Source: Gillisia sp. Hel_I_86 | GTDB lineage: Bacteria > Bacteroidota > Bacteroidia > Flavobacteriales > Flavobacteriaceae | Direction of reading: 5' to 3' | Length of the DNA stretch: 64,000 nucleotides | NCBI RefSeq assembly: GCF_007827275.1 | Contig: NZ_VISE01000001.1 | Location: forward strand, 2,790,001 to 2,854,000 | Shown here: positions 1,390 to 16,893 of the stretch, one piece after another | How the letters are laid out: each line of letters starts with the position of its first letter | How positions within the stretch are numbered: the first letter of the stretch is position 1 | Position numbers and translations under genes: made by a program | The notes under the pieces: model-generated | The model's input: only the letters and a program-made list of their open reading frames with translations | The model's database searches: none | Told to the model about the DNA's origin: nothing

Positions 1390-1434
1390 TAAATTTACCA
1401 GCCTCTATGGATAGTAACAATGATAATTATCATT
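1390..1434 (-). promoter_or_regulatory. TGA-N6-TCA operator and -7 element for the TerB-like gene
   Basis: TGATAATTATCA lies at 1421-1432, inside a perfect 16-bp palindrome (1419-1434). On the minus strand TAAATTTA (1397 down to 1390) begins 23 bp beyond the operator edge, the same spacing as at seven other sites in this window. It points to the gene starting at 1369. The kinase gene on the other side (1648) has no such element at that distance. Confidence 0.75.
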
Positions 1435-1647
1435 AAGTACAATACCAGTGGAATATTGGACTCATTTTGACTTTCTGTTTGGAACCGGGAATTAAGGATT
1501 TTATTTATTAAAGAAGGCTTTATTGAGTAGCATAGCCATACCTACGGTACACTAAAAAGATGAGATTAAGGAGCAAAATGTAAAATTCGTAGGTAAAAGA
1601 AAAAGTCGAGAGGAGTTCATTATAATAATAATGGGTATTTTTGAATT

Positions 1648-2811
1648 ATGGAAGGTTTTAAACGGGAGAGTGATGTATTCAGGATTCTTTCTGAAGCAGT
1701 TTCAGAAGGTATTATTGTGGTTGACAAAGCCCAGCAAATTGTAACCACTAATAAAGCTGCCGATGCAATTTTTGGCTATGCAAAAAATGAGCTTATTGGA
1801 AAATCCTTGGATGTTTTAATTCCCATGAAGTACCGTCATTCACATCCTAAGCAGGTGAAGACTTTTTTAGAAGATAGCGATAAACGGCAAATGGGCCATG
1901 GGAGGGATCTATATGGGTTGCGGAAAGACGGCTCCCAATTTCCGGTAGAAGCAGGATTAAATCCTTTTAATATAAATGGGAACATGTATGTCATGGCATT
2001 TGTTATAGATATTACCGTGCGAAAAGAGGCAGAAAAGGAAATTAGGGACTTGAATGCCGATCTGGAAAAAAAGGTGGAAGAGAGAACCTATCAGTTAAAG
2101 GAAGCCCTGCATAAGGAAAAGGACCTAAATGAATTAAAAACAAAATTCCTTTCGTTGGTGTCTCATGAATTCAAGACCCCGTTGAGCGGTATTCTCACTT
2201 CATCTACCCTAATTGGTAAATATCCCAATACAGGGCAACAAGATAAGCGTGACAAGCATATTAAAACCATTCAAAATAAGGTTAAGTTCCTAAATAATAT
2301 AATTAATGATTTCTTGTCTATAGAGCGTTTGGAAAGTGGAAAGGTAAATTATAAATTCTCAACGTTTCCTTTGAGCAAGATCATAAACGAAGTGATTTAT
2401 GATGCCAATATGTTTCTTAAAGATGGGCAAAAAATTAATTATCCAGAAAATATTGATGGCATTTTTATAAGTTTTGACGAAAAAATCTTACAACTCATAA
2501 TGACAAATCTTTTAAATAATGCCGTTAAATATTCCTCAGAAAATTCCACTATAGATATTGAAGCTGTTCTTGATACTAAAAGGCTTAGTATTGTTGTAAA
2601 AGATGAAGGTATAGGAGTTCCTGTTAACGAGCAAAAGTATATATTCAATAGGTATTTTAGGGCAGAAAATGCTCTTTTAAACCAAGGTACGGGAATAGGG
2701 CTTAATATAGTTAAAAGCCACTTGGAAAACTTGGGAGGTACAATTACCTTTGTAAGTGAAGAAAATAAGGGTAGTACTTTTTCGATAACAATTCCAGTTT
2801 CCACAAATTAA
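1648..2811 (+). CDS. PAS-domain sensor histidine kinase, FixL-like
   Basis: 387 residues, with no membrane segment or signal peptide, so it should be a cytoplasmic sensor. Order: PAS domain (about 8-128), coiled-coil linker (130-158), HisKA dimerisation helix with the phospho-acceptor in SHEFKTPLSG (His173), and a HATPase_c domain with N box, DEGIGVP (G1) and GTGIGLNIV (G2) motifs. The PAS carries His66 in YRHSHP and Arg86 in GHGR, 20 residues apart, as for the heme-binding His and distal Arg of FixL. Related non-heme PAS domains can also carry both residues, so oxygen sensing is only a hypothesis. Six bases separate it from the response regulator gene; the two form an operon. A -7-like TATTTTTG (1636-1643) sits right before the ATG, so a very short or absent leader is possible. 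Confidence 0.92.
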   Translation: MEGFKRESDVFRILSEAVSEGIIVVDKAQQIVTTNKAADAIFGYAKNELIGKSLDVLIPMKYRHSHPKQVKTFLEDSDKRQMGHGRDLYGLRKDGSQFPVEAGLNPFNINGNMYVMAFVIDITVRKEAEKEIRDLNADLEKKVEERTYQLKEALHKEKDLNELKTKFLSLVSHEFKTPLSGILTSSTLIGKYPNTGQQDKRDKHIKTIQNKVKFLNNIINDFLSIERLESGKVNYKFSTFPLSKIINEVIYDANMFLKDGQKINYPENIDGIFISFDEKILQLIMTNLLNNAVKYSSENSTIDIEAVLDTKRLSIVVKDEGIGVPVNEQKYIFNRYFRAENALLNQGTGIGLNIVKSHLENLGGTITFVSEENKGSTFSITIPVSTN

Positions 2812-2817
2812 AGAGAT

Positions 2818-3873
2818 ATGAAAACAATTTTATTGATCGAGGACGATGCTGCTTTACGGGAAAATACTGCAGAGCTGTTGGAATTGTCCAATTACCAGGT
2901 TATTACTGCTTCAAATGGCCAAATTGGAATAGAAAAGGTCAATGAGCATATACCCGATCTTATTGTTTGTGATATCATGATGCCAGAAGTAGATGGTTAT
3001 GGGGTATTGGACCTGGTTTCTAAAGATCCTAAAACTTCCCACATCCCATTTATATTTCTTTCAGCAAAAACAGAGCACAAGGAAGTTCGTAAAGGGATGG
3101 ATCTTGGTGCAGACGATTATATTACCAAACCCTTTGAGGAGGATGAATTAATTAGCGCAATACAAAGCCGGTTGGCTAAAGCTGAAATATTAGCCCAAAC
3201 TTCAGATAACAGAGCTGTACAAGAGGATCAAAATGGAAATTCCACACTTAGGAACCTTAACGAGTTAAAGAATTTTTTTGATACCAAGGGTAATATTTTA
3301 AGCTTTAATAAAGGGGAGCTAATTTATAAGGAAGGAGAACGCTCCAATACTATTTACCTAATCCTGAAAGGAGTAGTTAAAAGTTATAAAATGGACGAGA
3401 AGGGCAAAGAATTAATTACGGCGCTTTATAAGGCAGATAATTTTTTAGGCTTTACGTCTTTTGCTGAGAGCATAACCTATCAAGAATCTGTAATGGCAGT
3501 AGAAGAGGTAAAACTTGCTGGAATATCCAAGAGCGACCTAAAGGAAATTTTGGGCAAAAATAATGAGGTGTCCATAGAGGTGTTAAACTTACTAACAGGT
3601 GATATTTCCGAGATTAAAGAGCAATTGTTACAAATGGCATATGGTTCGGTGCGCAAAAAAACAGCAAGAACCATTCTGCAGTTTGTTAAGATTCTCGATA
3701 AAAACCCGCAAGATACCATTAAAATCTCGCGGTACGATTTGGCAAGTGTAGCTGGTATTGCTACCGAAAGTTTAATACGAACCCTTTCTGGCTTTAAGAA
3801 AAAGGGCTTAATTGAAATTGAAGGCAGAAACATTAGAATACTCGACCTAGAAAAATTGAATGCAATAGAATAG
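2818..3873 (+). CDS. Response regulator fused to CRP/FNR-type cNMP-binding and HTH domains
   Basis: 351 residues. The receiver domain (1-120) has acidic pocket EDD (8-10), phospho-acceptor Asp52 in VCDIMMPE and Lys in ITKPF. Then follow a cyclic-nucleotide-binding-like beta barrel (about 148-265) and a CRP-type winged helix (about 275-345). The recognition helix reads TESLIR (316-321), matching RETVGR of CRP and VETISR of FNR; the Glu and Arg that read the TGA half-site are kept (Glu317, Arg321). The only cysteine is Cys51, so it is not an Fe-S FNR. It should act as a phosphorylation-controlled activator, i.e. FixJ and FixK functions in one chain. It is the best candidate for the TGA-N6-TCA sites at the promoters around it. 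Confidence 0.92.
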   Translation: MKTILLIEDDAALRENTAELLELSNYQVITASNGQIGIEKVNEHIPDLIVCDIMMPEVDGYGVLDLVSKDPKTSHIPFIFLSAKTEHKEVRKGMDLGADDYITKPFEEDELISAIQSRLAKAEILAQTSDNRAVQEDQNGNSTLRNLNELKNFFDTKGNILSFNKGELIYKEGERSNTIYLILKGVVKSYKMDEKGKELITALYKADNFLGFTSFAESITYQESVMAVEEVKLAGISKSDLKEILGKNNEVSIEVLNLLTGDISEIKEQLLQMAYGSVRKKTARTILQFVKILDKNPQDTIKISRYDLASVAGIATESLIRTLSGFKKKGLIEIEGRNIRILDLEKLNAIE

Positions 3874-3885
3874 ACTTTGGTTAAC

Positions 3886-3928
3886 TGACAATTATCATTC
3901 TTTTAATCACCAAACTAAAATATTTTAG
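3886..3928 (+). promoter_or_regulatory. TGA-N6-TCA operator and -7 element, universal stress gene at 3960
   Basis: TGACAATTATCA (3886-3897) is followed after exactly 23 bp by TATTTTAG (3921-3928), a weak form of the Bacteroidota -7 element. The coding start is 32 bp further on. Same geometry as the other sites of this set. Confidence 0.75.
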
Positions 3929-3959
3929 CTTTTTATCTATAAATACTATAAATACGAAA

Positions 3960-4796
3960 GTGAAAAATATTTTAATACCTACAGATTTTTCTGAGAATTC
4001 TTGGAACGCTATTATTTATGCATTTTCTTTTTTTCAAAAAGAAGAGGTTACATTTCATCTTATTCATTTTACTTTGCCAAGCGATAATTCTCATGGAGAA
4101 CACTCATTTGAAAATGAAACTTCATTAAATGAGTCCAACTCTAAAATGGAAAGTCCCAATTTTAAAAAATTATTAGATAAGATCAATCAATTTTTTCCTG
4201 AAAACCGAAGCCAAATTTTAACAGTTATTCGTAGTGCCAAAGTTATAGAAGGTATTCGCCTATATCTTATAAACGAAGATATAGATTTACTAATAATGGG
4301 CACCAAAGGCGCTTCCAATTACCATGAATTTCCTATTGGCAACCAAACCTTGGAGGTAATTACCAAAGTAAAATGCTCAATTCTTGTTATCCCGGAAAAA
4401 GCAATATTTAAAATCCCAATAAGCTTGGTGTTCCCTACAGATTTTAATATTGTCTATAAGAGTAAAATAATTAATTCACTTATAGATATAGTGAATATCC
4501 AAAATGCATCAATAAAAATTCTAAGGGTAGCTCAAAATCAAAAAAAACTAAATGACTATCAGGTTGAAAACAGGGATTATTTAAAGAAAAATTTAGATAA
4601 TGTTCCTTATAGTTTTCATGTTATCGACAATCCAAATCTGGAAAGAGGACTTCAGTTTTTTATAAATACAATGAAAGTGGATATGGTCGCCATGGTGGCA
4701 AAAAACATCAACTTTTCCCAAAGGCTTTTATTTAAACCATCCGTAACTCAGTTTAATTACCATAGGGAAATCCCTTTTTTGGTTTTGCATGAATAA
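3960..4796 (+). CDS. Universal stress protein, tandem UspA domains (paralogue 1)
   Basis: 278 residues, starting at a GTG (the conserved MKNILIPTDFS begins here). The first UspA domain ends with the ATP-binding loop GTKG-x9-GNQT (residues 114-130). The second half starts with LVFPTDFN, the remnant of the strand 1 motif, but lacks the glycine-rich loop, so only one nucleotide site per chain is expected. Cytoplasmic. It is the first of five consecutive usp genes and has its own promoter, which separates it from the kinase/regulator operon upstream and from the next usp gene (154 bp downstream). Confidence 0.9.
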   Translation: MKNILIPTDFSENSWNAIIYAFSFFQKEEVTFHLIHFTLPSDNSHGEHSFENETSLNESNSKMESPNFKKLLDKINQFFPENRSQILTVIRSAKVIEGIRLYLINEDIDLLIMGTKGASNYHEFPIGNQTLEVITKVKCSILVIPEKAIFKIPISLVFPTDFNIVYKSKIINSLIDIVNIQNASIKILRVAQNQKKLNDYQVENRDYLKKNLDNVPYSFHVIDNPNLERGLQFFINTMKVDMVAMVAKNINFSQRLLFKPSVTQFNYHREIPFLVLHE

Positions 4797-4885
4797 TTCA
4801 TAATTCTTGGGAACGAGTCTTATAAAAAATGCAGATACTTTCAAATTCTAATCACTTATTTACAGTTTATAATACATTGAATAGA

Positions 4886-4928
4886 TGATTCTTATCATTT
4901 TTTGTTTACAATCATTATTGTAGTTTTA
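4886..4928 (+). promoter_or_regulatory. TGA-N6-TCA operator and -7 element, usp operon at 4951
   Basis: TGATTCTTATCA (4886-4897) and, 23 bp downstream, TAGTTTTA (4921-4928). The start codon of the usp gene is at 4951. Confidence 0.72.
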
Positions 4929-4950
4929 AATACTATTTAAATCTAGTCTC

Positions 4951-5799
4951 ATGCGAAAAATACTAATACCCACAGATTTTTCTGAAAATGCTTTGAATGC
5001 CATAAAGTATGGACTGGAACTATTTAAATATGAGCTCTGTGAAATATACCTTATCCATGCATATTCAGATGAGGTGTACAATACAAAAGGCCTTCTGGTT
5101 CGTGCAGGGTTTGAGGAGCTGAAGCTGCAAACTTTCAGAAATTCCGAAAAAGAACTAGAAAAACTGGAGAAGGAAATCCTTTTATTTTCCCCAAACCCAA
5201 AACATCGGATAATTACACTTTCTAAATTCGAAATATTGGTAGATGCCGTAAATGATCTCGCCGATAAAGAAAATATAGATATAATTATTATGGGGACCAG
5301 AGGTAAATCCAATGATAAAAAATTAACCTTTGGGAGCAATACACTTCAAGTTGTTAAATATGTTAAATGCCCGGTCCTAGCGGTTCCCAATACTTTTAAA
5401 AATGGGGCACCTTCTAAAATCCTATTTCCTACAGATTACCTGCTGCCGTATAAGCGTAGAGAGATAAAACTTTTAAGCACCATGGCAAATAGTTTTGCTG
5501 CCCGTATTGTTTTTCTGCATATTTCCAAATTTGAACAAGCATCCTACAGGCAGCAGGATAATAAAACTTTTTTAGAGAGCTGTGTAGAAGATAATAAGAC
5601 CGAGTTTATGAACATTAAGGGGGGTGATCTTACCGCTACAATAAATAACCAAATAAAATCCAATGGAATCGATATGGTGGTTATGGTCAACTCAAGGCAC
5701 TCTTATCTAGAAAGCATGCTGTACACCTCTACCATCGATAAAATGGGACTTCATTTAGAGGTTCCATTTTTAATACTCCAAAATTTACAACGTTATTAA
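4951..5799 (+). CDS. Universal stress protein, tandem UspA domains (paralogue 2)
   Basis: 282 residues beginning MRKILIPTDFSENALNAI, the UspA strand 1/helix 1 signature. The ATP loop of the first domain reads GTRG-x9-GSN (about residues 114-128). The second domain begins KILFPTDYL and has no such loop. The next two usp genes follow after 10 and 12 bp, so 4951-7525 is one three-gene operon driven by the operator at 4886. Sequence divergence from its neighbours shows an old tandem duplication rather than a recent one. Confidence 0.9.
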   Translation: MRKILIPTDFSENALNAIKYGLELFKYELCEIYLIHAYSDEVYNTKGLLVRAGFEELKLQTFRNSEKELEKLEKEILLFSPNPKHRIITLSKFEILVDAVNDLADKENIDIIIMGTRGKSNDKKLTFGSNTLQVVKYVKCPVLAVPNTFKNGAPSKILFPTDYLLPYKRREIKLLSTMANSFAARIVFLHISKFEQASYRQQDNKTFLESCVEDNKTEFMNIKGGDLTATINNQIKSNGIDMVVMVNSRHSYLESMLYTSTIDKMGLHLEVPFLILQNLQRY

Positions 5800-5809
5800 A
5801 ATAATAGAT

Positions 5810-6664
5810 ATGAAACGTATTTTACTACCCACAGATTTTTCCGATACGGCATACAATGCGATGTGCTATGCAGTTCAACTTTTTGAGAAGGAGAAATGCG
5901 AGTTTACGCTGTTACATACTTATACTCCTGTTACCTATAATGTGGGAACCGTAGCAGATAGTTATTCTACATTCGAATTACTGGAAGTTTTGAAGTCGAC
6001 AGTGGGGCAAAACCTGGATAAAACCGAGGAGCTGTTAAAAGGGAAATTCAAGAACCCAAATCATACTTTTCAAAAAAAAGGCACTTACAATTTACTGATC
6101 AACGAAATGCAGGATCTAATTAAAGAGAAAAACATAGAGCTTATTGTGATGGGTACCACGGGAGCAACTGGGGCAAAAGAAATTTTTCTGGGCACCAACA
6201 CCATGTATACCATTAAAAATGTTAAATGTGCAGTAATCGCCGTGCCGGCAAATTTTAGTTATGAAGAACCAAAAGAGATCTTATTTCCAACCGATTTTAA
6301 ATTCTCCTACAAAAACAAGTACTTATCATTTATAAGGGACCTGTGCAAAACACATACATCTAAACTGCATATATTCAATGTTGTTAAAGAAGAAACCACA
6401 GCTTCTAAAAATGATATGATGATGGATTTCTTGGACAAATATTTCGAAGATAATTTTCATAGATTTCATATCGCTAAAAACAAAGATCTTCAAGAAGCGA
6501 TAGTGGCATTCGAGTTAAAGAACAAAATCAATTTATTAATTATGATTCATAACAAGCATTCCTTTTTTGAAAACTTGTTGTTCAAGCCTGTTATCAATAA
6601 AATAGTATTTCATACCCAAGTTCCTTTCTTGGTCATTCCTTCAGAAGAAAGAATGATGAATTAA
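5810..6664 (+). CDS. Universal stress protein, tandem UspA domains (paralogue 3)
   Basis: 284 residues beginning MKRILLPTDFSDTAYNAM. The nucleotide-binding loop of the first domain is GTTG-x9-GTN; the second domain starts EILFPTDFK and lacks the loop. Middle gene of the 4951-7525 usp operon, 10 bp after the previous stop and 12 bp before the next start. The role is inferred from the family: ATP-binding stress-survival proteins made when growth or respiration stops. Confidence 0.9.
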   Translation: MKRILLPTDFSDTAYNAMCYAVQLFEKEKCEFTLLHTYTPVTYNVGTVADSYSTFELLEVLKSTVGQNLDKTEELLKGKFKNPNHTFQKKGTYNLLINEMQDLIKEKNIELIVMGTTGATGAKEIFLGTNTMYTIKNVKCAVIAVPANFSYEEPKEILFPTDFKFSYKNKYLSFIRDLCKTHTSKLHIFNVVKEETTASKNDMMMDFLDKYFEDNFHRFHIAKNKDLQEAIVAFELKNKINLLIMIHNKHSFFENLLFKPVINKIVFHTQVPFLVIPSEERMMN

Positions 6665-6676
6665 AAGCTGATACCG

Positions 6677-7525
6677 ATGAAACATATACTAGTACCAACA
6701 GATTTTTCCCAGAATGCCTATAGTGCGCTGCACTATGCAACACAATTATTTAAAAATGAGACGGCGACATTTTATTTGGTGAATTCCTTTGAAGCCAATG
6801 TGATCGCCCAAACAAAAGGAATTCCAACAAGTAAGAGTGAAAAGATAATAGCGCGGCTAAATAATGAATCTCAAGATAAGGCCAAACAGGTAAGGCATAA
6901 AATAATTCTGGATACAGAAAACAAACTTCATAAGTTTGAAATTATTTCCACCTTTTTAGATTTCCAAAAAACCATAAACAATCTTATTAAATCCAAAGCA
7001 ATAGATTATGTAGTGATGGGGACCAAAGGAGCAACCGGGGCAAAGGATGTATTGTTTGGGAGCAATACGGTTAAAGCGATCAAAAAACTAAAAGGAGCAC
7101 CACTCTTAATGATCCCTAATGAAATGGAATATGTGGAGGTTAAAAGAATTGGATTTGCTACAGATTTTACCAGAAAATTCATGCCCGAGGAAATAGCTCC
7201 AATCATCCGGTTTGCGAAAAACCATAATGCGGTATTAAGGATAATATTCCTAGGGGAACAAGAGATAATTACCGAAACGCAGCGTGAAAACATACATGAG
7301 CTTAAAGAGATGCTTTACGAGATAGATTACAAGCTTTTTGAAGAAGGAGTATTATACAATAAAACAGATAGCTTATTACAATATGTTATGTTATATGATT
7401 TTAATATTTTGGCAATGGTACATTATAAGCACAGTTTCTTAAAAGACCTTTTAAGGGAACCTGTAATCAAGATGATGGGATTATATTCCAATCGTCCCTA
7501 TTTGGTGATTCCGGCAGCCAACTGA
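6677..7525 (+). CDS. Universal stress protein, tandem UspA domains (paralogue 4)
   Basis: 282 residues beginning MKHILVPTDFSQNAYSAL. First-domain loop GTKG-x9-GSN; second domain starts RIGFATDFT, more decayed than in its neighbours. Last gene of the three-gene usp operon. Its TGA stop codon (7523-7525) is also the first half-site of the next operator, so a regulator bound for the downstream gene sits at the very end of this one. Confidence 0.9.
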   Translation: MKHILVPTDFSQNAYSALHYATQLFKNETATFYLVNSFEANVIAQTKGIPTSKSEKIIARLNNESQDKAKQVRHKIILDTENKLHKFEIISTFLDFQKTINNLIKSKAIDYVVMGTKGATGAKDVLFGSNTVKAIKKLKGAPLLMIPNEMEYVEVKRIGFATDFTRKFMPEEIAPIIRFAKNHNAVLRIIFLGEQEIITETQRENIHELKEMLYEIDYKLFEEGVLYNKTDSLLQYVMLYDFNILAMVHYKHSFLKDLLREPVIKMMGLYSNRPYLVIPAAN

Positions 7526-7565
7526 TAATTATCATAGAAATCATGGTCTTTGCCTAGTACATTTA
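7523..7565 (+). promoter_or_regulatory. TGA-N6-TCA operator and -7 element, usp operon at 7590
   Basis: TGATAATTATCA (7523-7534) overlaps the stop codon of the preceding gene. TACATTTA (7558-7565) begins 23 bp beyond it. The -7 element overlaps the upstream candidate start ATG at 7566, which supports the later start at 7590. Confidence 0.75.
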
Positions 7566-7589
7566 ATGGTGGAATTTAAAATGCAAACG

Positions 7590-8441
7590 ATGAAAAAGAA
7601 AATTTTATTACCAACAGATTTTTCCCAGCATTCATGGAACACAATAGTTTATGCAAGTGAATTATTCAAAAATGAAGAATGTAATTTTTATTTGCTGAAT
7701 GCATTTAAATATGAGGTAGTTGATTTAGGAGTTAATACTCCAGCTAATTCAGAAGATCGTATCTATAATATGGCTAAATCCAAATCTGAAGCGCAATTAA
7801 AAAAACTCATAAAAATGCTTGCTATAAGGAATTCGGGGTATAATCACACCTATTCTACCCATGCGGTCAATAATAATCCAATAAACGCAATAAAAGAGTT
7901 TGTGGAAACCAAAGATATCGAGCTAATAATAGTAGGAAATAAAGGAGAGACGGACGCTTTGGATATAGTGTATGGAAGTAACGCTATCACTATTATGGAA
8001 AAAATTAGAAATTGTCCAGTCCTTGTAATTCCTAGTCATTTTGAATATAAGGATCCCAAAGAGATTGTGTTCCCAACAAGTTATAAGACTCATTATAAAA
8101 AACGGGAACTGGAATATCTTTTTGAAATTTCGAAAATAACCAATTCCCCCGTGAGAATTTTACATGTAAATAAATCAGCTTCCCTCGATGAAAAACAACT
8201 GGAAAAAAGAGCTTTGCTGGAAGAATATTTGGATGGAGTGGTATATACATTTCATTGGTTAGAACATGATAATGTACAAACAGGCTTGCATTTATTTGTA
8301 CAAAGCCGGGGCAGTGAAATGATTGTTTTTATAAATAAAAAACACGCTTTTTTTGATGTGCTCTTTTCCAAACCAATGGTAAAAGATCTTGGTCAACATG
8401 CGAAGGTTCCTGTTTTGGTTCTACACGATCTGCGCAATTAA
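7590..8441 (+). CDS. Universal stress protein, tandem UspA domains (paralogue 5)
   Basis: About 283 residues from MKKKILLPTDFSQHSWNT. ATGs at 7566 and 7581 are in frame, but the former lies directly at the -7 element, and all paralogues start at the M-K-x-I-L motif, so 7590 is preferred. The ATP loop GNKG-x9-GSN is present in the first domain (Asn replaces Thr after the first Gly). The second domain begins EIVFPTSYK and has no loop. It heads an operon with the release-factor-like gene (11 bp later) and the ATP-cone gene. Confidence 0.9.
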   Translation: MKKKILLPTDFSQHSWNTIVYASELFKNEECNFYLLNAFKYEVVDLGVNTPANSEDRIYNMAKSKSEAQLKKLIKMLAIRNSGYNHTYSTHAVNNNPINAIKEFVETKDIELIIVGNKGETDALDIVYGSNAITIMEKIRNCPVLVIPSHFEYKDPKEIVFPTSYKTHYKKRELEYLFEISKITNSPVRILHVNKSASLDEKQLEKRALLEEYLDGVVYTFHWLEHDNVQTGLHLFVQSRGSEMIVFINKKHAFFDVLFSKPMVKDLGQHAKVPVLVLHDLRN

Positions 8442-8452
8442 AATGATGAATT

Positions 8453-8860
8453 ATGAAAAGGGCAGGTATTTGGATAGACCGAAAAAAAGCAATTATTATT
8501 ACGCTGGAAAATAGGGGGACAAAAATAGAAAAAGTGGTCTCTAAAGTTGAAAATACAGATAGTGATTTTAGCGGATTAAAAGATTTCGACAAAAGCGGGG
8601 CGCTAGAAATAGTGAAAGATCGAAAAGTATTGGAGATTAAAAAGCATGCTATTAAAAATTACTTTAAGCAAATTGTTTCGTATTTAGAAGATTTGGATAG
8701 CATCGTAATTTATGGCCCGGCAGATATGCCCTTGATTTTTAACAAGGAGTTGGAAACAAATTATCCCAAACTACACAAGAACGTAATAGACGTCTTAAAA
8801 GCCGATAGTATGACTGAGAATCAAATAAAGGCAATGGTTTCCAATTATTACAAGGTTTAA
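8453..8860 (+). CDS. Small eRF1/host-attachment-like protein
   Basis: 135 residues, cytoplasmic. It starts MKRAGIWIDRKKAIII, a beta-hairpin like the opening of bacterial proteins related to archaeal/eukaryotic release factor 1 domains (baeRF group). A second strand reads LEDLDSIVIYGPADM, as in the nucleotide- or RNA-binding half of that fold. No catalytic GGQ motif is visible. Small proteins of this kind often accompany usp and hsp20 genes. It lies between a usp gene and the ATP-cone gene in one operon. Family placement is tentative; function unknown. Confidence 0.6.
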   Translation: MKRAGIWIDRKKAIIITLENRGTKIEKVVSKVENTDSDFSGLKDFDKSGALEIVKDRKVLEIKKHAIKNYFKQIVSYLEDLDSIVIYGPADMPLIFNKELETNYPKLHKNVIDVLKADSMTENQIKAMVSNYYKV

Positions 8861-8885
8861 CTGCATGTTTTTATAGAAACAACCC

Positions 8886-9731
8886 ATGGGCAATGAAGAA
8901 ATTTTTATAGAGAAATCTTCGGGCGAAGGAGAGAAGTTTTCAATTTCAAAACTGCATAATTCGTTAAAGAGGAGCGGGGCAGATAGGGCTACCATAAAGA
9001 AAATTATAGACGTTGTGAGCAATGAATTGTATCAAGGAATTTCCACAAAGGAAATTTATAATCGAGCCTTCGCATTATTAAAAAAGAACAAACCAATATA
9101 TGCCTCAAGATACAAGCTTAAAAATGCCATTTATGAACTTGGTCCCACGGGATTTCCTTTTGAAAAATTTATTGGTGCTTTACTTGAATTTTCTGGATAC
9201 TCCATAAAAATTGGTTCGATTTTACAAGGTAAATGTGTAACACATGAGGTAGATGTAATTGCAAAAAAGAAGGAAGAATACATCGTAGCAGAATGTAAAT
9301 TCCATAGCGATCGCAGCAAAAAGTGCGATGTGAAAGTCCCCCTCTATATCCATTCCAGATATCAAGACATCCTGGTAAATTATAAAAATTCCAAAAGCTG
9401 TCCTAATGAAGGTTGGGTAGTAACCAATACGCAGTTTACAAAAGATGCTTTAATTTACGGGAAGTGCAGTGGCTTGCATTTGTTAAGTTGGGATTATCCT
9501 CTGGACAATGGGATAAAGGATAGAATAGACCGGCTTAGATTATATCCTGTTACAGTCTCCACCCTTTTAACCATTAGAGAAAAACAATTCCTTTTAAGCA
9601 GGGATATAGTCTTGCTACGACAGCTTTTAAAGGATAAATTTTATTTGGACCATTTGGGCATTTCAGAAAAAAGAATAGAGAAGATTTTTAAAGAAATTAA
9701 TACGCTTTGTAACCATATGAAAATTCACTGA
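8886..9731 (+). CDS. ATP-cone domain fused to Mrr-like PD-(D/E)XK nuclease domain
   Basis: 281 residues. Residues about 5-90 form an ATP-cone (EGEKFSISKLHNSLKRSGA at its start), the nucleotide-sensing module best known from ribonucleotide reductase and NrdR. Residues about 95-190 look like a restriction-endonuclease-fold domain: FEKFIGALLEFSGY, then THEVDVIAKKKEEYIVAECK, giving the D...ExK catalytic arrangement (Asp in EVDVI, Glu-x-Lys in AECK). A helical tail of about 90 residues follows. This suggests a nuclease gated by ATP/dATP level; target unknown. Fourth-from-last component of a stress operon; its TGA stop overlaps the ATG of the decayed beta-CASP gene (ATGA), showing former translational coupling. 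Confidence 0.8.
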   Translation: MGNEEIFIEKSSGEGEKFSISKLHNSLKRSGADRATIKKIIDVVSNELYQGISTKEIYNRAFALLKKNKPIYASRYKLKNAIYELGPTGFPFEKFIGALLEFSGYSIKIGSILQGKCVTHEVDVIAKKKEEYIVAECKFHSDRSKKCDVKVPLYIHSRYQDILVNYKNSKSCPNEGWVVTNTQFTKDALIYGKCSGLHLLSWDYPLDNGIKDRIDRLRLYPVTVSTLLTIREKQFLLSRDIVLLRQLLKDKFYLDHLGISEKRIEKIFKEINTLCNHMKIH

Positions 9732-10375
9732 TGCCATCTATAAAAATTCATTTTTCAGGAGTGTATTGTACGCTAACTGGTTCGAAATTTTATTGAAATT
9801 GAGTGGGCACTATCTAAACTGATTGCAGATTTTTCAAGCACTCAAAGGGTTACGAATACAAAATTGGGAACCTTTCCCACTGAATGCTTTCACCATGGAT
9901 TGTGTGCAACCAACCCATGGGTATTTAGATATACCGGTATTTGCCAAAGTTGGTGAAGCAAAGGTATCGTGGGAAAGATCATTGAAACAGGATCCATCCT
10001 AGCCATCACTGAAATCATTTTGAGGGATAGTGCCAAAATTCATGAAGAAGGTAGAGAAAGAACAAATAAAGGGTTTTTTTTTAAGCCTAAAGAAAGAGTT
10101 TCGGTAAAGCTCATCGAACTAATTAATGAAACCATACACAATAGAGCGACGCTTGTTATTCTATTGTTTGCTTCGGAAAGATTACAAATCTTAATGTTCA
10201 TACTATGAAAACCCTACAACGAAAATCGCACTCCTCATATTTCAATTTTTATAGATGGTCCATTGAACAATAATGTAGTAGCTGTTTTTCAATAATTTCC
10301 GGGTTGGCACAAACTTCTGTTGGATGAATTTATTGCGATGCAAAAGCGAATGAATATCATAACATAATTACTGAC
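9731..10375 (+). pseudogene. Decayed MBL-fold beta-CASP ribonuclease-like gene
   Basis: No intact frame exists here, but three-frame reading recovers ordered fragments of one family, the metallo-beta-lactamase/beta-CASP RNA-processing proteins. They are: an N-terminus KIHFSGVYCTLTGSKF (9740s); DCVQPTHGYLD, a damaged HxHxDH motif (about 9900-9935); ITEIILRDSAKIHEEG (about 10000-10055); a strand matching the beta-CASP core (about 10150-10200); and ISIFIDGPLNNNVV then FPGWHKLLLDEF (about 10240-10335). Stops, frameshifts and deletions separate them, and the C-terminal third is missing. Its ATG overlaps the preceding stop, so it was once the last gene of the usp/ATP-cone operon. Confidence 0.75.
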
Positions 10376-10381
10376 TTCAAC

Positions 10382-10424
10382 TGATAATTATCATTGCATT
10401 TTCCTTTTTCCAATTGTACTTTCA
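10382..10424 (+). promoter_or_regulatory. TGA-N6-TCA operator and -7 element for hsp20
   Basis: TGATAATTATCA (10382-10393), then TACTTTCA (10417-10424) after 23 bp. The Hsp20 start codon is at 10460. This site remained intact although the gene upstream of it decayed. Confidence 0.75.
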
Positions 10425-10459
10425 AATGAAATTAATTATTAATCTTAAAAAACAATATT

Positions 10460-10879
10460 ATGTCTTTAGTAAAATTTAAAAGAAGGGGTTTTCCTTGGTT
10501 GGATAACGATAATTTTTTTGAAAACGATTTTATCGCTTCTTCAAGAAACCTTCCAGCAATGAATGTGAAAGATAATCCAAAAAACATTGAAATTGAAATG
10601 GCCGTCCCAGGATTTTCAAAAAAGGAGATGGAAGTATCATTAGAAAATGGTATCCTCCATGTTTCTGCAGAAAAGAGTAAAGAAGAGAAAACAGGAGACG
10701 AAGATTATACTCGAAAAGAGTTTGAATACAGCTCCTTTGACAGAAAACTGCAAATTCCACCTACGGTAGATCAAGGTAAAGAGGTAGTGGCCAGTTATAA
10801 AGATGGAATCCTTAAACTGAAACTCGCAAAAAAGAATTCGGTTATAGAGCACCCAAAGAAGGTCATTAAAATTTCTTAG
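10460..10879 (+). CDS. Hsp20/alpha-crystallin small heat shock protein
   Basis: 139 residues, a normal length for the family. An N-terminal arm (1-35) precedes the alpha-crystallin domain (about 36-130): IEIEMAVPGFSKKEMEVSLE opens it, followed by ENGILHVSAE and the end strand YKDGILKLKLAKK, which contains the conserved GIL/L-x-L signature. ATP-independent holdase that keeps unfolding proteins soluble in the cytoplasm. The C-terminal I-x-I anchor may be served by VIKIS. It has the TGA-N6-TCA promoter rather than an obvious heat-shock element, so control by the stress/energy regulon is likely. Confidence 0.95.
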   Translation: MSLVKFKRRGFPWLDNDNFFENDFIASSRNLPAMNVKDNPKNIEIEMAVPGFSKKEMEVSLENGILHVSAEKSKEEKTGDEDYTRKEFEYSSFDRKLQIPPTVDQGKEVVASYKDGILKLKLAKKNSVIEHPKKVIKIS

Positions 10880-10928
10880 TTATACCTGATAAATAGAATA
10901 TTTATATCCCCCCGTTAAAAAACACAAG

Positions 10929-11372: not shown

Positions 11373-11387
11373 TTGAACTCAGGATAT

Positions 11388-12044
11388 ATGAAAGCTGTAC
11401 CAATTCCCAGAAAAAATGAAGTTCATATAGTTGGAATTCTACTATGCTTTCTATTTATAAGTTGCTCCTCCACTAATTTAGTAGAACAATACACAAATCC
11501 AGCTCTACAAAATTTAAAAATCAAAAAAGTTTTGGTTATTGGAATGACCCCTGATATAGAGGTTCGAAGAATCTTTGAAAAAAAGGTAGCAGACGAATTC
11601 TATAAGCGGGATGTGATTGCCGTAGAGAGTATCGATTTTTTTGAAAAATCGTTTGCAGAAAACCAAAAATCCGAGGAGCAATTAAATCAAATTCAAGAAC
11701 AATTAATAGAAGCAAACTTTGATGCTGTTTTGTTGGCCAAAGTTACAGGACAAGAAGAAAAAGTGGGAGTGGCCCAAGCCTACAGGGATTTTTTAAGGGA
11801 TTTTAATTCTTTTACAGATTACTATTATTACAATCAGGAAATTTACGGAAGTCAGGAATCTGAAAATTATGTGCTTTACCACACAGAAACTGCACTTTAT
11901 TGTTTGTGTCCTGCAACCGAACGGCAAGTACTGTGGAAGGCAACTATAGATATCGTTGATACGGAACGTTTGGTTAAGAATATAAATGATTATATAAAAG
12001 TGCTATTTAAAAGTTTGAAGGATGGCCGGGTCCTTTTGAAATAA
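11388..12044 (+). CDS. Lipoprotein of unknown function
   Basis: 218 residues from ATG 11388; a TTG at 11373 would add five. The N-terminus has a basic start, a hydrophobic stretch (VGILLCFLFISC) and lipobox FISC, so export and lipidation are expected. The body begins KKVLVIGMTPDIEVRRIFE and continues with a helix rich in Glu and Gln, then strands near FDAVLLAKVTG. This looks like the outer-membrane-associated lipoproteins with a TolB-N-like or periplasmic-binding start, but no family is certain. Sits 15 bp after the helical protein gene, in the hsp20 transcription unit. Confidence 0.65.
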   Translation: MKAVPIPRKNEVHIVGILLCFLFISCSSTNLVEQYTNPALQNLKIKKVLVIGMTPDIEVRRIFEKKVADEFYKRDVIAVESIDFFEKSFAENQKSEEQLNQIQEQLIEANFDAVLLAKVTGQEEKVGVAQAYRDFLRDFNSFTDYYYYNQEIYGSQESENYVLYHTETALYCLCPATERQVLWKATIDIVDTERLVKNINDYIKVLFKSLKDGRVLLK

Positions 12045-12092
12045 CATTTGGTTATATCCATTTTTCATCCAACACGGCAGCTTCTCCTCTAG

Positions 12093-12106
12093 TCACCCAG
12101 TCCCGA
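12093..12106. repeat. Dispersed repeat fragment, TCACCCAGTCCCGA
   Basis: The 14-mer TCACCCAGTCCCGA occurs here and at 28540-28553, both in non-coding DNA. The surrounding 12045-12294 segment has no coding signal. It resembles the short extragenic repeats scattered through flavobacterial genomes. Confidence 0.45.
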
Positions 12107-12338
12107 CGCTACGGAAAGTTTCAGGGTCTCGTTTGGACTTACTGGATGCTGAACAATCCCAAGATAGGTAACAGTGTGACAAACCCCTGAATATAGATAG
12201 GTAATAGTAAGTACGGTACAAAAACGGACAATCAGTAAGATTTTTGAGTATCAATTAAGACTCAATTGATAAAAGCTACACAATCCTTTTTCATTGGTAT
12301 TATTTAATAACCTATTAGGAACACTACAAAATAGTATC

Positions 12339-13184
12339 TTAAGAATTCAATTTGTGCAGTATCAAAAGAGGGACACTGGATCCATAGCTCATTTTTGTTC
12401 TTTCGGAACCAAAAATAAAGCGTTCCAGAAAAGATTCTTTTTCATCAAGGAACATGGCATGAAGATCTATATGTAAAAGTTGTACAACAGTACTTATGAC
12501 CATCGCGGCTGGAATTCTATTAACAACAGAAAATTTGTAATTAATATCCTTAAAAAGTCTTTTGATTCTAGCATTGTCTTTTTTGACGCTTGTGGTAATG
12601 GGGTTGTTGTTTAGCTCTACCACATTCACTTTGGGTTCATGCCTCGCTATTATTTCCTTTAAAATTGAAATTCCAGCACTACTAAAATCTTCAGATCTAA
12701 AAGTTGAAAAAAGTATATTTTCTATTTTCGAGAATTTAAATTTTTCAGGAATAATTAATACCGGACATTGGATGTTTCTTATTACCCGTATGGTATTGCT
12801 GCCAAATACTATTTCCCTAGCATTTGTGGTCCCATTTGTACCCATTATAATAAGATCTATTTTATGGGAGGCTAAGGTTTCGTTTATAGCATTAACAAGA
12901 TTATCAAAATCAAAAATCGGTTTAAATGTATAGGCTTCGTGGAGAAATTGCAGTTTATATTTTTTGATCAATTTTTTCAACTGCTTCTTGTTATCATTTG
13001 CGATCGTTTCATAAATTGAAGCTTCCGGTGCTGCTGTTACCAAATCTGCAGATAGAAAATCTGAAGATTTTTGAACATTCAGAATATAGAAATTACAGCT
13101 ATTTCCTTTAAAGAATTCAAGCGCATACTCTATAGCATTCAAAGAGTTCTCAGAGAAATCTGTAGGTAATAGGATATTTTTCAT
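12339..13184 (-). CDS. Universal stress protein, tandem UspA domains (paralogue 6)
   Basis: 281 residues starting MKNILLPTDFSENSLNAI. First-domain ATP loop GTNG-x9-GSN (about 117-131), followed by CPVLIIPEKF, the usual last strand. The second domain begins NILFSTFRSE, clearly decayed, and has no loop. It is transcribed against the rest of the island and has its own operator at 13234, divergent from the WG-repeat/ATPase unit. Most similar by eye to paralogue 1. Confidence 0.9.
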   Translation of the reverse strand: MKNILLPTDFSENSLNAIEYALEFFKGNSCNFYILNVQKSSDFLSADLVTAAPEASIYETIANDNKKQLKKLIKKYKLQFLHEAYTFKPIFDFDNLVNAINETLASHKIDLIIMGTNGTTNAREIVFGSNTIRVIRNIQCPVLIIPEKFKFSKIENILFSTFRSEDFSSAGISILKEIIARHEPKVNVVELNNNPITTSVKKDNARIKRLFKDINYKFSVVNRIPAAMVISTVVQLLHIDLHAMFLDEKESFLERFIFGSERTKMSYGSSVPLLILHKLNS

Positions 13185-13202
13185 CGCAGTAGATTATAAG
13201 AA

Positions 13203-13245
13203 TAAAAGTAGGTGTAAACCAAGTATAAAAGAATGATAAAAGTCA
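13203..13245 (-). promoter_or_regulatory. TGA-N6-TCA operator and -7 element, usp gene at 13184
   Basis: TGATAAAAGTCA (13234-13245) keeps the TGA and TCA half-sites but has an imperfect centre. On the minus strand TACTTTTA (13210 down to 13203) begins 23 bp away and leads to the ATG at 13184. Confidence 0.7.
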
Positions 13246-13364
13246 TGTTAACCTTGGGTAGAGGGTATTATAAAAGCCTTGGAGGTGAAGGATCCCTAAT
13301 AATTTAAAATTCTTCTAAAAGCATAGCGAAGTTGAATGTTGACCTCTAGTTTTTCAATTAAAAG

Positions 13365-13407
13365 TGATCAATATCATTTAAAATGTGACGCGATGCTTTT
13401 AACTTTA
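13365..13407 (+). promoter_or_regulatory. TGA-N6-TCA operator and -7 element, WG-repeat/ATPase unit
   Basis: TGATCAATATCA (13365-13376) is followed after 23 bp by TAACTTTA (13400-13407). The start codon is at 13429. With the site at 13234 it makes a divergent promoter region in which each gene has its own operator. Confidence 0.73.
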
Positions 13408-13428
13408 GGAAAATAAAACACTTGCGTT

Positions 13429-14046
13429 ATGAGAACAACAGTATTTACTTTCGGGTTAATTATTTTAAGCTGTCTGGGTTTTGCTCAGGATATTAAAGAT
13501 TTAAATTTTATAGCTCCATTTAAGGAGGGCTTGGCGGCTGTTCAGAGGGATGGGGATTGGGGTTTTATAGATGAGTCTGGAGCTTTGGTGATAGATTTTA
13601 GAAAAGATGTGGTGATATTGCCTGTGGAGGAAGAAGGCAAATCAAAATTCCCCTATTTTAAAGAAGGGATGTGCCTTATCCAAAAAACAGTAAAAGACAT
13701 TCCTTTCTATGGTTTTATGGATACATCGGGAACAATTGTAATTGATCCCGTATATATAAATGCCACTAATTTTAAAGATGGCATGGCAATAGTAGGGGAG
13801 CTTACCAAAGAGAGCCTTGGTAGGAATGATCTTTTGGACAAAAGGGTCGTAAACTACAGTTTTTCAGAAATAGCTATAGACAAGTCTGGAAAGCTCTTAT
13901 ATTTTCTTACAGATCCCCAACACGTAACGTTGGATAAAAAATATTTAAGGAAACTTCCAAAGATCAAATCTACCGTGCTCAATGAAAAATTAATTGCTGT
14001 TCCAAGTAAAACAACAAAAAATTGGACGGTCATGAGACTACATTAA
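13429..14046 (+). CDS. Exported WG-repeat protein
   Basis: 205 residues with a cleavable signal peptide (TVFTFGLIILSCLGFAQ). Two or three WG repeats follow: FKEGLAAVQRDGDWGFIDES, then FKEGMCLIQK with YGFMDTSG, and FKDGMAIVGE. WG repeats form beta-propeller-like surfaces of unclear ligand, usually periplasmic in Bacteroidota. The gene carries the stress-type promoter and is followed by the ATPase gene after 102 bp without a clear terminator, so the pair may be one unit. Shorter than typical multi-repeat WG proteins. Confidence 0.8.
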   Translation: MRTTVFTFGLIILSCLGFAQDIKDLNFIAPFKEGLAAVQRDGDWGFIDESGALVIDFRKDVVILPVEEEGKSKFPYFKEGMCLIQKTVKDIPFYGFMDTSGTIVIDPVYINATNFKDGMAIVGELTKESLGRNDLLDKRVVNYSFSEIAIDKSGKLLYFLTDPQHVTLDKKYLRKLPKIKSTVLNEKLIAVPSKTTKNWTVMRLH

Positions 14047-14148
14047 TCCATGTTTTAACTTCCATACGTGTTGTTTTTCAGCGTTACTATTTCTCTGATT
14101 TTCAAAAACGTTTCACTAATTTTTATATTTTCAATATATTTTAACGAT

Positions 14149-16794
14149 ATGGGAAATGCTTATACACTTACTGTTGAATCCCTTTTAAAACAGTTGGAAG
14201 TAGATCCTTTGGAAGGATTAAGCGAGAAAGAAGTTGAAGATAGAACGAAGAAATATGGCGCCAATATTTTTAAAGTTAAAAAAGCTAAAAGTTGGGCTCT
14301 CATACTTTTAAACCAATTTTTAAATCCGATAGTTTATATACTGGTAGCAGCCACAATTTTAGCCTTTTTGTTTCAGGATTGGCTAGAAGGAATTGCGGTT
14401 ATAATAGTAATCCTCTTAAATGCTGTAATTGGATTTACTATGGAGCTAAAAGCAACCCGAATGATAGAGTCCTTGCAAAAAAGCGCTCAATTGTTGTCTA
14501 CAGTATTAAGAAATGGGAAGGTTCACAGTATTGCAGCCGCCAATTTGGTTCCAGGGGATGTGCTCATTCTCTCTCCGGGAACTATTGTAGGTGCAGATGC
14601 CCGTATTATCCATCAGGAGGGTATTGCCGTTACCGAATCGGCTCTAACAGGGGAAAGTGACCAAGTTACAAAATCAGAAAAAGCACTAGAGGTAGATACC
14701 CCTGTTTATAAAAGAAGCAATATGGTGTTTAAGGGCACCATCATAAATAAAGGGCATGCAAAGGCAATTGTAACTGCAACCGGGTCTCAAACAGAATTGG
14801 GTTCCATCAATAAATTAGTTCAAGAAGCAATTAAAGAAGATACCCCGCTGGGTAAACGATTAAATCGTTTAAGCCATAGGCTTATTTTTCTCACCATTTT
14901 CTTAATCATGATAATTATAATCATTGGTTATATAGAAGGGGAAGATTGGGAAATATTGATTAAAACCAGCATAGCACTTGCCGTTGCTGCAATTCCAGAA
15001 GGGTTGCCCATAGTCGCCACAATTACCCTTGCTCACGGTATGGTAAAATTATCCAAGCAAAGGGTAATTATAAAAAGACTAGAAGCCGTGCAAACCCTTG
15101 GCGAGATCACAATGATGTGTACAGATAAAACAGGAACCCTTACACTGGACAAAATGAATGTGGCACAAGTGGTTTTGGAAGACAAAACTATCATGGCATC
15201 GTCATTGAACCCTAACAGGGATGGAGAATCTTCCAAAAACTCGGGACTTTCATTTCTAAAATTTATTGAAGTGAGTATTCTGTGCAACAATGCCCTCGTT
15301 CAAGATGAAAATTCCAGTGGAGACTCCCTAGAGATTGCATTAATTGTTTTTGCTGAAGAGTTGGGACATAACGCACGAGATTTTAAGTCTAAATACCCAA
15401 AAGTCCATGAAATTCCATTTGATGAAAATGATAAATTCATGGCTACCTTAAATAAATATGGAGATACCTTTCAAATTTGTGTCAAGGGAGCACTGGAAAT
15501 CGTTTTGAATAGGTGCAGCTCGGGATTGGACGAAGATGGGGATAAGATCCAACTAGATAGGGGTAAGTGGCTTCAAGCGTCGGAAGAAATTGCAAGCCGG
15601 GGATTACGGGTATTAGGCTTTGCATATAAGGAAACTGAAAAAACCACTATAGAGGGACAAATTCATGATCTCATATTTATTGGGATCGTTGGGTTTTTGG
15701 ATCCTCCAAGATCTGATGTTCGACAAGCAATAGAAACCTATAAAAAAGCCGGTATAAAAGTAACCATGATCACAGGGGATCAATTGGCTACTGCGCAAAA
15801 GATTGCTGAAGAGATTAATTTATTGGTTCCAGGCGAGGATAATGAAAAGAAGGTTATTCATGGCGACATGATAAAGGATTTGGATAGTGCAGACCTGGAT
15901 TTTAAAAACAAACTGCTGCACGCAAATGTTTTTGCACGGATAATTCCAGAGCAAAAACTACAATTGGTAGCGTTTTTCCAAAAGAACAATCATGTAGTAG
16001 GAATGATGGGAGATGGAATCAACGACACTCCTGCGCTTCGAAAGGCCGATATAGGAATCGCCATGGGTATTCGAGGTACAGATGCGGCAAAAGAGGTGGC
16101 AGATGTAATCTTACTGGATGATAAATTTGCTTCAACAGAATTAACGATAAGGCAGGGAAGAACTATTTTTAGGAATATTAGGCAGTTCGTTGTGTATCTT
16201 TTATCCTGTAACCTGGCTGAAATACTTTCAGTAGTGATCGCTGCGCTCATAAATATTCCGCTACCTCTTCTACCCTTACAAATTCTTTATCTCAATCTAG
16301 TAACAGATACATTTCCGGCATTGGCCCTTGGAATGGGGAAAGGCGAAAAAGTGATCATGGAGCGACCTCCAAGAAATCCTCAAGAGCAAATTATCACTCC
16401 TTTGCTCTGGCGATCAGTAATAGTGTATGGGCTATGTGTTACGTTCATTGTGACGGGTGTTACTTTGTATACGCACTTTGTCTTAAAATTGCCAAGTAGC
16501 GTAGTAAATAATATTTCTTTTTATACCCTGGTGTGGACACAGTTACTTCATGTCTTTAATATTCCATCTCGTATTCATTCTTTTTTTAATAATGAAGTAG
16601 TGCACAATAAATGGGTTTGGGCGGCCATGGTACTCTCTGTACTTCTAGTTGTTATTGCTTATTTGATCCCTGCTGTTCGAGAGGCATTATCCCTTTTACC
16701 CTTAACTATAGAACAATATCTAATTGTATTTTTTGCAGGGATATCTTCGGTAGTGATAATCCAGGTGTTCAAGAGAATTGGAATTACAGAATAA
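14149..16794 (+). CDS. P-type cation-transporting ATPase, Ca2+-like (P2 type)
   Basis: 881 residues from ATG 14149 (MGNAYTLTVESLLKQ); an ATG at 14068 would add 27 hydrophobic residues absent from the family. Motifs: N-terminal cation-ATPase domain, TGES actuator loop (SALTGESDQ), phosphorylation site DKTGTLT with Asp326, MITGDQ, and MMGDGINDTPAL hinge. Membrane helix 4 has PEGLP and helix 6 NLVTDTFPALALG, both typical of Ca2+ or Na+ pumps of the SERCA/PMA-like group. It should use ATP to expel a cation across the inner membrane; the ion is not fixed by sequence. Probably shares the TGA-N6-TCA promoter at 13365. Such ATPases recur in usp/hsp20 clusters. Confidence 0.92.
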   Translation: MGNAYTLTVESLLKQLEVDPLEGLSEKEVEDRTKKYGANIFKVKKAKSWALILLNQFLNPIVYILVAATILAFLFQDWLEGIAVIIVILLNAVIGFTMELKATRMIESLQKSAQLLSTVLRNGKVHSIAAANLVPGDVLILSPGTIVGADARIIHQEGIAVTESALTGESDQVTKSEKALEVDTPVYKRSNMVFKGTIINKGHAKAIVTATGSQTELGSINKLVQEAIKEDTPLGKRLNRLSHRLIFLTIFLIMIIIIIGYIEGEDWEILIKTSIALAVAAIPEGLPIVATITLAHGMVKLSKQRVIIKRLEAVQTLGEITMMCTDKTGTLTLDKMNVAQVVLEDKTIMASSLNPNRDGESSKNSGLSFLKFIEVSILCNNALVQDENSSGDSLEIALIVFAEELGHNARDFKSKYPKVHEIPFDENDKFMATLNKYGDTFQICVKGALEIVLNRCSSGLDEDGDKIQLDRGKWLQASEEIASRGLRVLGFAYKETEKTTIEGQIHDLIFIGIVGFLDPPRSDVRQAIETYKKAGIKVTMITGDQLATAQKIAEEINLLVPGEDNEKKVIHGDMIKDLDSADLDFKNKLLHANVFARIIPEQKLQLVAFFQKNNHVVGMMGDGINDTPALRKADIGIAMGIRGTDAAKEVADVILLDDKFASTELTIRQGRTIFRNIRQFVVYLLSCNLAEILSVVIAALINIPLPLLPLQILYLNLVTDTFPALALGMGKGEKVIMERPPRNPQEQIITPLLWRSVIVYGLCVTFIVTGVTLYTHFVLKLPSSVVNNISFYTLVWTQLLHVFNIPSRIHSFFNNEVVHNKWVWAAMVLSVLLVVIAYLIPAVREALSLLPLTIEQYLIVFFAGISSVVIIQVFKRIGITE

Positions 16795-16850
16795 TTAGGA
16801 CTTCTTGGACTTTGAACAGACCATTTATTAACAGAAAAGCCATTAAAACA

Positions 16851-16893
16851 TGATGAGAATCATATAATTATTATGGCTGGACATCAATCTTTG
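16851..16893 (+). promoter_or_regulatory. TGA-N6-TCA operator and -7 element, CoA-transferase gene
   Basis: TGATGAGAATCA (16851-16862), part of ATGAT-N4-ATCAT, followed after 23 bp by AATCTTTG (16886-16893). The first base departs from TAnnTTTG but the TTTG half is perfect. Start codon at 16911. Confidence 0.68.

Follow-up and report, generated by a model that had tools for sequence, protein, structure and literature searches.

The closest described systems are FNR, FixLJ-FixK of the Alphaproteobacteria, and DosR/DevR of mycobacteria together with OsdR of Streptomyces. FNR carries N-terminal cysteines that hold a [4Fe-4S] cluster and a recognition helix of the form E-x-x-S-R, and its operator consensus is TTGAT-N4-ATCAA. 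At the class II promoters of E. coli, CRP or FNR is centred at -41.5, the classical position of an activator. In the FixJ-FixK cascade, a separate FixJ drives the transcription of a separate fixK. For the Caulobacterales, FixLJ-FixK has been proposed to have replaced the lost FnrN (PMC4999443, in the part cited here). The regulons of DosR and OsdR list Usp, heat-shock proteins, nitroreductase, pyruvate phosphate dikinase and alcohol dehydrogenase (PMC5069765, likewise in part).

The locus considered here lies in a window of 64 kb, that is, the whole stretch of DNA that was analysed. It holds the kinase HK1, directly followed by REC-CRP1, one 351-aa protein composed of a receiver, a cNMP-binding fold and an HTH_Crp_2 output. 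The arrangement resembles FixLJ-FixK in that a FixL-related PAS kinase would feed a Crp/FNR-type regulator without Fe-S cysteines, and in the targets cco, nuo and hemN. Unlike FixLJ-FixK, it has neither FixJ nor a separate FixK, and the regulon is centred on Usp genes. The receiver and the CRP/FNR module form one protein, and phosphorylation would therefore act directly on the activator. The logic seems nearest to that of FixL-FixJ-FixK with FixJ and FixK merged. With FNR, the system shares the TGAT-N4-ATCA core, the class II position, low-oxygen targets and the CRP/FNR fold, and the recognition helix is common with the stand-alone FNR-like proteins of its relatives. REC-CRP1 differs from FNR in that it has no N-terminal cysteine set (C51 is the sole Cys) and begins with a receiver, and the outer operator bases differ as well.

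The likeness to DosR/DevR and OsdR consists of an oxygen-sensing (here putative) kinase system amid a Usp-rich regulon, as far as the cited part of PMC5069765 describes it. Usp, Hsp20, PEP synthase and Zn alcohol dehydrogenase genes are found near sites here, and a hibernation factor is found in 17 of the 79 REC-CRP1 loci compared. The clustering is of the DosR type too: six Usp genes cluster in the window, and 169 of the 341 sites in the 79 loci precede a Usp gene. Unlike DosR, the regulator is of the Crp type, with HTH_Crp_2 as its output, and both operator and phylum differ; the heme-binding domain of DosT/DevS is a GAF domain, while HK1 has a PAS domain. Judged by its sequence, the system is a member of neither FixL-FixJ-FixK nor DosR/OsdR, as it lacks defining features of each. 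Among the titles and abstract beginnings retrieved from the open-licence PubMed Central literature, no description of such a system was found.

Table 1. Operators, -7 elements and genes of the cluster, in window coordinates.
Feature	Position	Strand	Remark
136-aa protein, family without a name	959..1369	-	relatives follow 44 of the 341 spacing-23 sites in 79 loci
-7 element TAAATTTA	1390..1397	-	23 bp from operator 1421
Operator TGATAATTATCA	1421..1432	-	upstream of the 136-aa gene 959-1369
HK1: PAS (heme-PAS-like, His66) + HisKA + HATPase	1648..2811	+	
REC-CRP1: receiver + cNMP-binding-like domain + Crp HTH	2818..3873	+	candidate regulator of the operators
Operator TGACAATTATCA	3886..3897	+	before Usp 3960
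-7-like element TATTTTAG	3921..3928	+	4/5 match
Usp	3960..4796	+	
Operator TGATTCTTATCA	4886..4897	+	before Usp operon 4951-7525
-7 element TAGTTTTA	4921..4928	+	serves Usp operon 4951-7525
Three Usp genes (4951, 5810, 6677)	4951..7525	+	operon
Operator TGATAATTATCA	7523..7534	+	before Usp 7566; overlaps the preceding Usp stop
-7 element TACATTTA	7558..7565	+	serves Usp 7566
Usp; 135-aa protein; protein weakly matching Mrr_cat (E 3e-5)	7566..9731	+	
Operator TGATAATTATCA	10382..10393	+	before Hsp20
-7-like element TACTTTCA	10417..10424	+	4/5 match
Hsp20	10460..10879	+	
Usp	12339..13184	-	
-7 element TACTTTTA	13203..13210	-	serves Usp 12339-13184
Operator TGACTTTTATCA (minus-strand reading)	13234..13245	-	before Usp 12339-13184
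Operator TGATCAATATCA	13365..13376	+	before WG protein and P-type ATPase
-7 element TAACTTTA	13400..13407	+	serves WG protein and P-type ATPase
WG-repeat protein	13429..14046	+	
Calcium-type P-type ATPase	14068..16794	+	scanned from 14146
Operator TGATGAGAATCA	16851..16862	+	before CoA-transferase; weakest site
-7-like element AATCTTTG	16886..16893	+	4/5 match
Acetyl-CoA hydrolase/CoA-transferase family protein	16911..18200	+	

An earlier, sequence-only reading of this DNA had placed TGA-N6-TCA palindromes at 1421, 3886, 4886, 7523, 10382, 13234, 13365 and 16851, and had put a -7-like element at a distance of exactly 23 bp from every operator. All eight palindromes are present, and at an offset of 23 in the direction of the gene each is followed by a match to TA..TTT in four or all five of its fixed positions. 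The match is complete at five sites (1421, 4886, 7523, 13234, 13365) and extends to four of five positions at 3886, 10382 and 16851; the last is the weakest in the window, its -7 element and its core both being weak. At the remaining 42 offsets between 3 and 45, a -7-like match is found on average at 0.33 and at most at one of the eight sites. The bare palindrome occurs 24 times in the window against 20.9 expected, which is chance level. The non-random signal is thus the spacing to the -7 element together with the position upstream of genes, not the frequency of the palindrome. A relaxed scan of the window yielded no additional one-mismatch operators with a strict -7 element. The target genes named in the same reading (six Usp, Hsp20, the WG protein with the P-type ATPase, and the CoA-transferase) were recovered. 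Its label "TerB-like" for the 136-aa protein had to be dropped, since neither Pfam nor NCBIfam gives a significant family match.

We regard the following mechanism as probable. The eight window sites would be class II operators of a single regulator, REC-CRP1, and the cytoplasmic kinase HK1 would hold a heme-binding PAS domain. Upon a drop in oxygen, HK1 would phosphorylate Asp52 of the REC-CRP1 receiver, and the phosphorylated dimer would bind TGAT-N4-ATCA centred at -41.5. There, it would contact RNA polymerase with the housekeeping sigma factor of the Bacteroidota and activate promoters with a -7 element TAnnTTT(A/G) and a weak -33 region. The regulon would serve micro-oxic survival, with Usp, Hsp20, the P-type ATPase and the CoA-transferase as targets in the window; outside it, the targets would be the cbb3 oxidase, nuo, pyruvate:ferredoxin oxidoreductase, a cytochrome c and a peroxiredoxin. 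REC-CRP1 would perform the role of FNR. If this holds true, operator, spacing, promoter and regulator form a legible low-oxygen code for the Flavobacteriaceae, which are abundant in sea and soil, and the members of the regulon become predictable from sequence in many genomes. The system would be an independent way of connecting oxygen to survival genes, beside FNR, FixLJ-FixK and DosR, and a natural example of the exchange of a regulator class at an unchanged promoter position.

The proposed sensor is the PAS domain of HK1. Its best PDB matches are EcDosP (5.7e-17) and FixL (1.3e-16); a blue-light photoreceptor with a non-heme PAS scores 3.5e-6. His66 aligns with the heme His of DosP and FixL; 69 of 70 relatives have it, whereas positions 60, 61, 63-65 and 67 vary. 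R86, 20 residues past the His, matches the distal Arg of FixL and is kept in 55 of the 70. The His is present in all 14 type-1 kinases compared, in three of them in an extra N-terminal PAS. These features suggest that the HK1 PAS domain binds heme and oxygen. HK1 does not reach the cut-off of the NCBIfam FixL equivalog (99.6 bits; cut-off 850). For HK2, the kinase of a second pair in this genome, a role in heme sensing was rejected: no His is aligned in its first PAS domain here, although two of the four other type-2 kinases have one.

The pathway may also run as proposed on a signal other than oxygen, such as NO, CO, the redox state or another ligand. More than one gas can act on heme-PAS domains, only the 55 relatives mentioned have the distal Arg, and some type-1 kinases carry extra PAS domains (626-629 aa). 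We nevertheless consider such a signal unlikely, because the nearest solved PAS domains are oxygen sensors and the regulon of the genome has the content of an oxygen-limitation response (cbb3 oxidase, nuo, pyruvate:ferredoxin oxidoreductase).

REC-CRP1 appears to be the best candidate for the regulator of the operators, and the HK1/REC-CRP1 pair is likely responsible for the response. An HK gene adjoins the REC-CRP gene in all 20 loci inspected and, by script, in 70 of 70 loci with a full gene. FNR structures are the closest in the PDB to the CRP part of REC-CRP1 (1.3e-14). Compared with the E-x-x-S-R helix of FNR, E and R are found in all 22 REC-CRP rows, which therefore read E-x-x-x-R, and Ser is replaced by Ile in types 1 and 2. 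The geometry is conserved around REC-CRP1 orthologues. In stretches of about 20 kb from 13 other genomes, 40 operator/-7 pairs have a spacing of 23 and no other spacing exceeds 3. A larger set of 79 loci (of 80; the genomes include Gramella, Zunongwangia, Aquimarina, Maribacter, Arenibacter and Winogradskyella) holds 341 intergenic pairs at spacing 23, while no other spacing has more than 18, and every locus contains at least one intergenic spacing-23 site. Besides the Usp genes, sites are followed by S30AE ribosome-hibernation-type proteins in the 17 loci already mentioned, by ccoNO in 10, and by thioredoxin-like and DnaJ-like proteins, both named by eye, in 7 and 6.

The spacing does not belong to REC-CRP carriers alone. 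Genomes of the same family have on average 21.1 spacing-23 sites with REC-CRP and 11.1 without it (17 genomes), and in family f5 the figures are 6.8 for carriers and 6.9 for non-carriers. Over the other families of the class, the mean is 5.8 against 0.7 in the control, with 6.1 in 26 REC-CRP carriers and 5.2 in 11 non-carriers. Of 296 genomes sampled across the phylum, 43 encode a full REC-CRP (E 1e-45). Spacing 23 is best seen as the phylum's general class II geometry for activators of the Crp/FNR kind, employed in this case by REC-CRP1. Being common to these activators, the spacing does not identify the regulator. The site count was accordingly abandoned as proof that REC-CRP is the regulator, the association being partial in the own family and f5 showing no difference.

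Other Crp-family proteins of the genome therefore have to be weighed. One of them belongs to the second pair, HK2/REC-CRP2. The recognition helix of REC-CRP2 (ATETAIR) is nearly identical to that of REC-CRP1 (ATESLIR), and spacing 23 is also found in the REC-CRP2 region. The operator cores, TGATATATATCA-like at type-1 loci and TGACCTAGGTCA-like at type-2 loci, differ in the GC content of their four central bases (p 2.6e-4). Judging from these cores, the second REC-CRP uses spacing 23 with an operator core of its own. The cores of the window sites are AT-rich, like those at REC-CRP1 loci. Profiles built from 341 type-1 and 29 type-2 sites score all eight window sites as type 1, the one at 16851 only just, and give type-1 scores also before ccoNO, nuoA and pyruvate:ferredoxin oxidoreductase. 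Type-2 scores are obtained by the sites beside REC-CRP2 and those in the PEP synthase/ADH cluster, and the hemN site is ambiguous (-0.8). Single assignments are soft, because the profiles classify only 86% and 83% of their own training sites correctly. Beside REC-CRP2, a perfect direct repeat of 300 bp (L060:5227-5526 and 7193-7492, at about 3828.2 and 3830.2 kb of the own genome, 1966 bp from start to start) flanks a 518-aa ORF resembling a transposase gene; each copy contains type-2 operators.

A second candidate is a 200-aa Crp-like protein (G000:C1:3761813). Its helix PESLSR has the form E-x-x-x-R, which contradicts the idea that this helix is exclusive to the REC-CRPs in the genome, but the protein has no PF13545 match above the cut-off. 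The geometry also exists in genomes without REC-CRP, among which a stand-alone FNR (helix TATESCIR) is found. On the other hand, sites cluster by REC-CRP1 in 79 of 79 loci, and a second REC-CRP is absent (E 1e-25) from seven of the eight FNR-less genomes described below. It is thus rather doubtful that REC-CRP2, the 200-aa protein or an unrecognised member of the family is the regulator, with REC-CRP1 as a co-regulator at most.

REC-CRP1 as regulator also agrees with the distribution of FNR. The stand-alone FNR-like protein of the relatives has N-terminal cysteines. By a criterion of at least 44% identity and an E-value of 1e-60 or better, 8 of the 14 REC-CRP1 carriers among 40 genomes of the own family, the present genome being one of the eight, yielded no FNR orthologue, compared with 0 of the other 26. 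The association is significant when phylogeny is ignored (Fisher 3.9e-5 across the 40 genomes), and one genus, g2, is dominant; once it is left out, the figures for missing FNR are 8 of 14 with REC-CRP1 and 0 of 4 without (p 0.09). The eight FNR-less genomes still have 15.9 spacing-23 sites on average (0.9 in the control), and in two of them, G072 and G206, such a site precedes ccoNO. The sites kept in these genomes must therefore have a regulator other than FNR. G072 and G206 hold another Crp-like protein of 244 aa (34% identity), and this protein, or the 200-aa protein in the present genome, may act as the regulator. As no FNR orthologue was found in the present genome, REC-CRP1 or its paralogue REC-CRP2 would have to replace FNR here. 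The exchange would be of the same kind as that from FnrN to FixLJ-FixK in the Caulobacterales, as proposed in the cited part of PMC4999443. We lean slightly towards a broader reading, in which a route specific to the Bacteroidota arose by fusion of the receiver of a heme-PAS system to an FNR-type activator. This phosphorylation-switched substitute would have displaced Fe-S FNR in several flavobacterial lineages, would run a DosR-like regulon through operators at -41.5, and would have given rise by duplication to two systems that share the spacing and differ in their operator cores.

The -7 element of F. johnsoniae promoters reads T-12 A-11 .. T-8 T-7 T-6 G-5, with a near-invariant G at -5 and a -33 element that is far less evident (PMC6847099, in the part cited). 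In this register, the 23-bp spacer extends from -35 to -13, and the operator occupies -47 to -36. The class II position claimed in the sequence-only reading is thereby borne out, the operator centre falling at exactly -41.5 when spacing and T-12 register are combined (PMC6847099, with the same restriction). Base -5 is A in 30 of 40 spacing-23 promoters of the 13-genome set and in 184 of 341 of the 79-locus set. The base directly past the TCA of the operator is T in 93% of 40 sites; the base preceding TGA is C in 20, A in 17, T in 2 and G in 1. The inner TGAT-N4-ATCA, noted in that reading as FNR/FixK half-sites, resembles FNR operators, while C or A and T stand in the outer positions that the FNR consensus fills with T...A. 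A third operator flavour, roughly TGAYYYRRRTCATAAACCAAGGC, was noticed by eye with spacing 23 at G000:C1:4168514 and in G039, G236, G072, G290 and G411.

The centre at -41.5 is shared with the E. coli class II promoters of CRP and FNR, unlike which the promoters here are TAnnTTTG-type -7 promoters read by a polymerase with a Bacteroidota sigma factor. A dimer bound at this position could block the -33 region, so that the operators would mainly serve repression. This seems improbable, since -41.5 is the classical activator position, and the weak -33 regions and the frequent A instead of G at -5 suggest dependence on an activator.

Activation by REC-CRP1 would extend well beyond the window. The whole genome (one contig, 4.245 Mb) was scanned with the pattern TGAYNNNNRTCA-N{8,38}-TANNTTT. 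Spacing 23 accounts for 23 of 63 operator/-7 pairs, and the mean for the remaining 30 spacings is 1.33 (Poisson 8e-21); this excess settles the earlier concern about a chance spacing. Because 18 of these 23 pairs fall outside the window, the peak is independently confirmed. A search with the gap fixed gives 24 sites and none for the reversed-pattern control; the difference of one is due to site 3100182, which has two -7 matches and was entered once, at spacing 21. The sequence-only reading had spoken of an eight-promoter regulon; the common regulator implied by it agrees with the spacing genome-wide and in relatives, and the size does not, in view of the 24 strict sites. An arrangement by chance in AT-rich intergenic DNA can be dismissed: although TGA-N6-TCA alone occurs at chance level, it is ruled out by the spacing-23 peaks in the histograms of the window, the genome, the 13 genomes and the 79 loci, and reversed-pattern controls yield 0-6 per genome in the family.

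At 15 of the 18 strict sites outside the window, an ORF on the same strand starts no more than 250 bp from the -7 match; the other three have no plausible gene within 250 bp. By family search, the candidate targets outside the window include hemN (oxygen-independent coproporphyrinogen oxidase), the cbb3 oxidase genes ccoNO, Usp, nuoA, 2-oxoacid:acceptor oxidoreductase, ferredoxin, pyruvate:ferredoxin oxidoreductase, cytochrome c, an MlaE permease, peroxiredoxin, PEP synthase, Zn alcohol dehydrogenase and a VIT-family protein. This set largely resembles the gene content of a low-oxygen regulon.

Some further features of the window were noted. A nitroreductase-family gene lies near the cluster (22757-23503) and has no spacing-23 operator in the relaxed scan of the window; such genes also occur in DosR/OsdR regulons. 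About 600 bp without an ORF of at least 90 aa (9760-10380) separate the Mrr-like gene from the Hsp20 operator; they may be what is left of a mobile element. At 18476-19108 and, in similar form, at G000:C1:4236264, small regulators of the Crp type are encoded whose helix reads SRVVISR; a TauE-like and an FTR1-like gene (by eye) lie beside them, and a third fragment of this regulator sequence is located at the start of the contig.
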